Under the pieces are notes generated by a model. That model was not told where the DNA came from, searched no databases, and saw only the letters and a program-made list of their open reading frames with translations. From positions 1 to 47,620 of the forward strand of contig CAMDMY010000010.1 in the NCBI GenBank assembly GCA_945902775.1: 47,620 nt of DNA. Direction: 5' to 3'. This stretch comes from Chryseobacterium gleum (GTDB taxonomy: Bacteria > Bacteroidota > Bacteroidia > Flavobacteriales_D > Crocinitomicaceae). The position numbers and the translations under genes are program-made. Below, piece after piece: positions 8,929 through 9,081 of the stretch (position 1 is its first letter; every line of letters starts with the position of its first letter).

Positions 8929-8959
8929 AAAAAAAAAGACCTTCCAATTGGAAGGTCTT
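8929..8959 (-). terminator. Attenuator terminator upstream of pheA
   Basis: On the minus strand a perfect 24-nt palindrome (8959-8936, half AAGACCTTCCAA) is followed by nine consecutive T (8937-8929), 25 nt before the pheA ATG. Because it stands between the promoter/leader peptide and the structural gene, it fits an attenuator, not an end-of-operon terminator. Its CCTTCC left arm can also pair with GGAAGG at 8992-8987, the start of an alternative antiterminator. Confidence 0.9.
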
Positions 8960-8986
8960 AAAATTATTTATGGGTATAACAATTCT

Positions 8987-8992
8987 CCTTCC
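8987..8992 (-). promoter_or_regulatory. Antiterminator arm GGAAGG overlapping the leader stop codon
   Basis: The hexamer GGAAGG begins with the G of the leader's TAG stop and is complementary to CCTTCC (8945-8940), the left arm of the attenuator terminator; it copies the terminator's own right arm. A ribosome that finishes the leader would cover it and let the terminator form; a ribosome stalled at Phe codons would leave it free to pair. Confidence 0.7.
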
Positions 8993-9045
8993 TAGTCACA
9001 TTTGTGAAAGAAACTAAAAAAGAAGAAATTGAAATTCTGTGTCAT
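8992..9045 (-). CDS. pheL: Phenylalanine leader peptide of the pheA operon
   Basis: An 17-residue ORF (MTQNFNFFFFSFFHKCD, then TAG) lies between a predicted promoter and the pheA terminator. Seven of 17 residues are Phe, including a run of four and a pair, with both TTC and TTT codons used. This is the composition of classical Phe attenuator leaders (pheL, pheST leader), where low charged tRNA-Phe stalls the ribosome. The ATG is about 22 nt downstream of the expected transcription start and the stop codon overlaps the antiterminator arm. The symbol is given by functional analogy, not by homology to the enterobacterial peptide. Confidence 0.88.
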   Translation of the reverse strand: MTQNFNFFFFSFFHKCD

Positions 9046-9073
9046 TTTGTATTTAATTTGTTTTTAATTTGGT

Positions 9074-9081
9074 CAAATATA
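9074..9081 (-). promoter_or_regulatory. Predicted -7 box (TATATTTG) of the pheA operon
   Basis: Exact TAnnTTTG match on the minus strand in the 59 nt between the recQ stop and the leader-peptide ATG. Its position puts the transcript start about 20 nt before the leader ATG. Confidence 0.55.

Follow-up and report, generated by a model that had tools for sequence, protein, structure and literature searches.

A probable leader-peptide attenuator before pheA in a member of the Bacteroidota, and asparagine-phenylalanine leaders in its relatives

The pheA locus and its leader

The stretch of DNA analysed here (the window, 47,620 nt) carries on its minus strand pheA, for a prephenate dehydratase of 276 aa (8903-8073; PF00800, 4e-52) whose PDT domain is accompanied by a sub-threshold ACT domain, and, 11 nt after it, a gene for a DAHP synthase/chorismate mutase type II fusion of 360 aa (8061-6979; DAHP_synth_1, PF00793, 9.5e-34, and CM_2, PF01817, 8.3e-20). 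These matches uphold the identities given to the two genes in an earlier note on this DNA. pheA is the first structural gene, and the two would presumably be transcribed as one operon. The upstream neighbor on the same strand, recQ (725 aa, 11282-9105), lies outside the unit; it ends 201 nt upstream of pheA, and in other relatives the upstream genes are different.

Downstream of recQ is a -7 box, TATATTTG (9081-9074), read from the sequence by its fit to TAnnTTTG, the Bacteroidota-type form, whose partner element would be a -33 TTTG; no clear -33 TTTG was found upstream of the box by eye. The promoter evidence for a leader transcript consists of this box, whose position would put the start of transcription at about 9067. 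There follows a leader ORF of 17 codons, MTQNFNFFFFSFFHKCD (9045-8992, with its ATG at 9045 and TAG at 8994-8992), of which seven are Phe and two Asn. A Shine-Dalgarno sequence was not seen before the ATG at 9045, and translation in the Bacteroidota is described in a review as proceeding without SD pairing (PMC10931766). The strand GGAAGG (8992-8987), which shares the G of the leader stop codon, pairs with CCTTCC (8955-8950) in the left arm, AAGACCTTCC (8959-8950), of a terminator whose right arm is GGAAGGTCTT (8945-8936), the left arm being common to antiterminator and terminator. The terminator, AAGACCTTCC-AATT-GGAAGGTCTT (8959-8936), has a 10-bp stem and a run of nine T (8937-8929). All of these structural parts, the overlap of GGAAGG with the leader stop and its pairing with the left arm included, had been placed by the earlier note, and were found again letter for letter at the same positions. 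The leader of relative G006, MVQNFNFFFFSFFHKRD, is the conserved counterpart of MTQNFNFFFFSFFHKCD, and the GGAAGG segment is also present in G006, G005, G008 and G010.

None of 200 shuffles gives a terminator equally stable (energy z = -5.3). For the leader, p is 0.027 for the count of F, Y, W and N codons (300 dinucleotide shuffles) and 0.040 for F, Y and W (dinucleotide shuffles, as in the blind rule given below), and for the pairing of GGAAGG with the left arm it is 0.04 (300 dinucleotide shuffles); in the window alone leader and antiterminator pairing are moderately beyond chance. Seven of one residue in a leader occur at one of the window's 21 terminator-like sites, that of pheA, the next best having four to five.

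The suggestion that phenylalanine would govern the shikimate entry enzyme would hold for one isozyme but not for the whole step. The organism's own genome encodes three PF00793 proteins (the window's, one on contig C68 and one on contig C27), and that on C68 is a second DAHP synthase/chorismate mutase fusion (L040, 1831-2901, with an EPSP synthase frame after it), so that the attenuator would govern one isozyme. Next to the C68 fusion gene and divergent from it is a Trp leader, MERNISNTNFWWRTTVSWCAWC, with a terminator (L040, 1480-1607), a site that scores 43.6 bits for Bacteroid-trp, below the cut-off of 49; after it comes an N-terminal frame of anthranilate synthase I (L040, 865-1440) that meets stop codons after 191 residues and is either a broken gene or an assembly error. 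The family-wide search for AsnA found none in this genome.

Folding and the proposed switch

The geometry proposed earlier, with stalling freeing GGAAGG and completion of the leader hiding it, works in folding when a 13-nt lead is assumed as the ribosome footprint. A ribosome held at the last Phe codon leaves GGAAGG free before the right arm exists, and the hairpin of GGAAGG with the left arm (8992-8950, with an extended stem) comes to -10.1 kcal/mol. A ribosome that has moved on to the stop codon covers GGAAGG, and the terminator then forms (-15.5 kcal/mol, compared with -15.1 kcal/mol for the terminator alone). When no ribosome is present, the Phe codons, which are U-rich, base-pair with the GGAAGG segment, plausibly as a protector helix. 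In the cases computed, the minimum-energy structure includes the terminator as soon as the right arm exists, even with the ribosome at Phe13, and the switch must therefore be kinetic.

The element very probably attenuates transcription in a ribosome-mediated way, with charged tRNA-Phe as the signal. RNA polymerase would initiate near 9067, and a ribosome would translate the 17-codon leader behind it. When Phe-tRNA is abundant, this ribosome would reach the stop codon and cover GGAAGG, the CCTTCC/GGAAGG terminator would form and transcription would end at 8929. With Phe-tRNA scarce, the ribosome would stall within the seven Phe codons, leaving GGAAGG free to pair first with the left arm, and polymerase would continue into pheA and the fusion gene after it. 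Should no ribosome load, the Phe codons could pair with the GGAAGG segment and the terminator would stay. Transcription of the leader, stalling and read-through are here deduced from the letters. Several features expected of such an attenuator are found at the locus: an intrinsic terminator ahead of pheA (z -5.3, with nine T after a 10-bp stem), a short ORF rich in codons for the product (7/17 Phe), an antiterminator exclusive with the terminator (-10.1 kcal/mol; p 0.04; better with its own arm than with the average other arm in 75/87 of the attenuators compared below) and, under the assumed 13-nt lead, a stall position that frees the antiterminator together with a stop position that hides it. 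Counting against the attenuator reading are this terminator-on fold of the whole free RNA and the need for transcription-translation coupling, on which, outside E. coli and Bacillus, a review states that 'we do not know yet' (PMC10931766).

A different possibility is that the leader acts via translation of pheA, through re-initiation or Rho rather than by intrinsic termination, and re-initiation has indeed been proposed for leader genes near structural genes (PMC4833913). That proposal involves a distance of ~10-14 bp, whereas the leader stop is here 88 nt before pheA, and a strong terminator with nine U, which the antiterminator excludes, also speaks against such action, which we hold to be improbable.

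Recurrence at pheA loci and known systems

Further evidence for the attenuator comes from a phylum sample made up of the window and the best 80 of at least 581 confirmed PheA loci in a public genome collection, which is not a random sample and is nearly all Bacteroidota. A blind rule called for a terminator no more than 260 nt from the first gene, preceded by an ATG frame of 8-40 codons that ends 8-65 nt before the left arm and has at least five F, Y or W codons (p <=0.05 on 200 shuffles). The rule was passed by 59/81 of these pheA loci versus 5/455 control terminators. The controls come from elsewhere in these loci, on either strand and well away from where pheA begins, whether or not a gene starts nearby; each had 60 shuffles, which gives a coarser p. 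A terminator is present before 64 of the 81 loci, and it is 59 of these 64 that pass. The 55 distinct passing leaders have 20% Phe and 17% Tyr, compared with 6.5% and 2.9% in 151 control frames, the passing set being one selected for aromatics. A comparative search of this type was a check put forward by the earlier note, and its outcome favors the attenuator. The companion check, for relatives that keep the terminator without Phe codons, came out mostly the same way: relatives keep aromatic codons, but L135, within the sample of 81, keeps a terminator with no aromatic ATG leader before it, and is a case against an attenuator.

Failure to pass, in 22/81, has several forms. By eye the unit can be made out in L075, L086, L087 and L146, where the start is not ATG or the loop is long; the leaders of L070 and L071 are of the Asn+Phe type, and L073 and L148 are without upstream DNA. 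No attenuator unit was seen in the other 14 of the 81 loci, 10 of these 14 having been read by eye; six are pheA-x-aminotransferase operons (L110, L120, L131, L135, L136, L143), three are titled Flavobacteriales (L094, L096, L099) and the remainder are L085, L112, L117, L141 and L145. (L072 and L157 represent a single locus, L071 is probably genome G319, and L072, L117 and L130, whose record titles name other phyla, are probably mislabelled assemblies.) Control by Phe only is not general, as many relatives encode Phe+Tyr+Trp or Asn+Phe. That Tyr codons track tyrA as a single rule was considered and dropped, pheA-aroG-aroA-aroC operons without tyrA in the chain having, by eye, Tyr-rich leaders too. 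Tandem attenuators occur before pheA in L162, L163, G193 and G277 (one G277 leader with an N base was replaced in the final leader set). Separately, L014 (G041) and L015 (G048) display two aromatic-rich leaders in series before pheA, each with its own terminator.

How well the antiterminator matches the left arm was assessed with an ungapped pairing measure in 87 attenuators that were selected on the presence of a leader and comprise 74 different left arms. The antiterminator scores 17.6 with its own arm, with means of 13.5 for the other arms and 11.2 after shuffling; its own arm exceeds the mean of other arms in 75/87 (p 6e-14, which overstates independence because the 87 rows are related) and the shuffle mean in 79/87. 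By this ungapped measure the 5% shuffle level is reached in 56/87 and not in 31/87. The median distance from the last F, Y, W or N codon to the antiterminator is 11 nt across the 87. Among the pairs are GGAAGG/CCTTCC in the window, CAGGGTT/AACCCTG in L158, AGCCAGGGCT/GGTCCTGGCT in L102 and TCGGGGTTT/AAATCCCGA in L147.

These results bear on another reading, in which the hairpin is the recQ terminator and the Phe-rich frame a product of chance in T-rich DNA. With recQ ending on the same strand 201 nt upstream of pheA, the region AT-rich and the leader at p 0.027-0.040 in the window alone, the locus taken singly offers it something. It was nevertheless rejected: the unit is retained at loci that have another gene, or a divergent one, upstream. 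With the excess at pheA loci over control terminators and the fit of antiterminator to own arm also against it, its probability is very small. The strength of the attenuator case is owed to the relatives, where 59/81 stands against 5/455, and not to the window alone.

Leader-peptide attenuation of pheA is textbook knowledge for enterobacteria. The window's element is like the enterobacterial one (pheL, RF01859) in its Phe-codon leader, its terminator and antiterminator, and the prephenate dehydratase downstream; it is unlike it in having the antiterminator on the leader stop codon, in an operon that adds DAHP synthase/chorismate mutase, and in scoring 31.8 bits for Phe_leader RF01859 against a threshold of 55. 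(pheL is mentioned in PMC5009743.) Within the window's own phylum, Bacteroid-trp (RF01692) was catalogued in 2010 as an RNA of Bacteroidetes that is likely to regulate in cis (PMC2864571) and has been likened to the E. coli trp leader (PMC6414381), but it involves Trp codons and trp genes, and an Rfam scan gave no match to it at the window's pheA locus. A 2021 transcriptome of F. psychrophilum reports, before pheA and in other Flavobacteriaceae too, a conserved structured 5' element with no Rfam hit, and, ahead of amino-acid operons, strong signs of attenuation by leader peptides, pheA being unnamed in that sentence; its main text, in the parts available, is without asnA, asparagine or phenylalanine and gives no leader sequence (PMC9723704). 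Earlier, Naville and Gautheret (2010) considered leader peptides to have been shown, to their knowledge and the ermC leader aside, in Proteobacteria and Actinobacteria only, and added Firmicutes (PMC2965389). To call attenuation less often described in the Bacteroidota, as had been done for this DNA, is then fair, but with Bacteroid-trp and the F. psychrophilum pheA element it is not undescribed.

Terminator and antiterminator logic is also common in riboswitch and T-box classes, and an RNA of that type, with the ORF incidental, could be imagined. The window has one tRNA as its sole Rfam match at threshold, and 20 related loci have one S15 leader (L129), away from pheA, so no family reaches threshold at the pheA locus; moreover, what the loci have in common is their codon content, and this changes with the genes of the operon. 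We regard such an RNA as exceedingly improbable. Sub-threshold matches at the locus, to tsr26 (35.4 vs 141 bits) and to Phe_leader (31.8 vs 55 bits), were set aside as chance or bare terminator, that to Phe_leader being probably the palindromic terminator because it is also matched on the opposite strand.

Asparagine codons and asnA in the window's family

In a census of 240 genomes of the family, prephenate dehydratase is present in 29, AsnA in 24 and both in 21 (hypergeometric 1e-20, with genomes treated as independent). Phenylalanine synthesis is patchy here, with PheA in just 29/240 genomes and in 21/24 of those having AsnA, and it may move as a module with its own attenuator. asnA ends within ~10 nt of pheA, or overlaps it, in 13/29 of the genomes with pheA. 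Upstream DNA is readable for 26 of the 29 pheA operons, the contig ending inside asnA in the other three, and in 26/26 the first gene is preceded by a terminator together with a leader in which F, Y, W and N codons number four or more (16 without and 10 with asnA in front). Where asnA is directly 5' of pheA, as in L004, L005, L006, L019, L049 and L053, the leader has Asn as well as Phe codons.

Leaders before asnA-pheA have a mean of 4.6 Asn (11 genomes, being the 10 of the census and the named contig L070), compared with 2.1 before pheA without asnA (16 genomes; p 5e-5, or 7.6e-5 for 10 vs 16 genomes without L070). Tyr+Trp moves the other way, with a share of 3% vs 11% (p 7e-4). Genomes whose asnA is cut by contig ends (G247, G253, G304) were left out of the Asn statistics, as was G009, with asnA at a contig end and the leader MKTMNINFFNFNNNHIR; the asnA leaders of G003 and some pheA leaders were shortened by hand to an inner ATG. 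All of these p values treat related genomes as independent, the exception being a test with one value per branch. In a single PheA clade with support 100/99 (20 rows) the Asn contrast has p 7e-4 for 10 vs 7 genomes, L070 being absent from the tree and not counted here; taking each branch once (6 vs 4) gives p 0.016. The PheA tree, to which a long-branch warning applies, requires five changes of the asnA-pheA arrangement, three of them forced by well-supported branches. An illustrative sister pair is G219 (asnA-pheA), with MISSRNNNSFFNYNSM, and G120 (pheA alone), with MNSRNNMSFFYYNSM. G120 is also among the exceptions, having, like G181 and G232, four Asn with no asnA in the operon (G163 and G271 have three); conversely, G259 has asnA in the operon and only three Asn. 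As judged from these leaders, codons follow operon content, though not as a clean rule.

asnA apart from the pheA unit has Asn-rich leaders of its own in four genomes (G003, G004, G133, G254), tandem in three of them. In G003, where asnA neighbors a pheA that has its own attenuator, they are MKTTNYNFFFNHNRFR and MKAQKNGNNQFK; in G004 they begin with MKTLNNNFFNTNSNSIR (GTG start) and MQKLNRNNNNNNSPPDGG. The second leaders of G004 and G254 are less typical, their frames ending inside or beyond their own terminator. The aromatic share is 12% in leaders of separate asnA and 27% in those of asnA-pheA (p 0.008). By eye, tandem attenuators are discernible before asnA in L041, L045 and L052 and before asnA-pheA in L049 and L070, and several second leaders run into Pro codons (L041 NNNKAPPW, L045 NNNNSPPD, L049 FFFGPPP, L070 FFNTPP), which, being CC-rich, may form a hairpin. 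At the family's lower-scoring AsnA (272-284 bits) no attenuator was seen by eye in five loci (L055-L059), and a divergent AsnC-type regulator is beside asnA in all three that were checked (L056, 857-1312; L057, 2396-2851; L058, 781-1242). Among ten asnA loci elsewhere in the phylum, Asn leaders were seen by eye in two (L209 and L211, of one genus in another family) and none was seen in seven, L205 and L212 with less upstream DNA, their starts having been placed too far within the gene; L214 was unreadable.

It seems rather likely that a leader before asnA-pheA, such as MKMMSNNFFFNNNNHIR, senses both Asn and Phe, a shortage of either opening both pathways, that with asnA lost the Asn codons shrink, and that a separate asnA has Asn-rich attenuators, tandem in three of four genomes. 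The window's Phe-only leader may stem from a loss of asnA, which would have been lost in the window's lineage rather than gained by the others. A single leader for several amino acids of an operon has precedent in the E. coli thr (Thr+Ile) and ilv (Leu, Val, Ile) leaders. The resemblance lies in sensing several amino acids; the difference is that in the relatives Asn is combined with Phe, whose pathways come together in the asnA-pheA operon. Neither asparagine attenuation nor an Asn+Phe leader is described among the matches listed, as far as the texts available go, and earlier predictions are possible; Asn+Phe leaders before asnA-pheA and asparagine attenuators were not met in the literature searched.

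The element of the window is very probably a sound attenuator, ordinary in kind and belonging to a known class, and comparison supports it well; what is less expected is found in its relatives. The architecture of leader-peptide attenuation is present at most of the 81 sampled pheA loci, in a phylum without SD-based initiation where, according to a review, coupling is not established (PMC10931766); a working attenuator would demand transcription-translation coupling and so provide a direct assay for it. The asnA-pheA relatives amount to a natural experiment in which leader codons would be re-tuned as operons are rebuilt. The distribution within one family suggests that asparagine attenuation is an alternative to AsnC-type regulation of asnA and, if the proposal for the asnA-pheA leaders is true, one attenuator would in the window's family serve two unrelated pathways, those of asparagine and phenylalanine.
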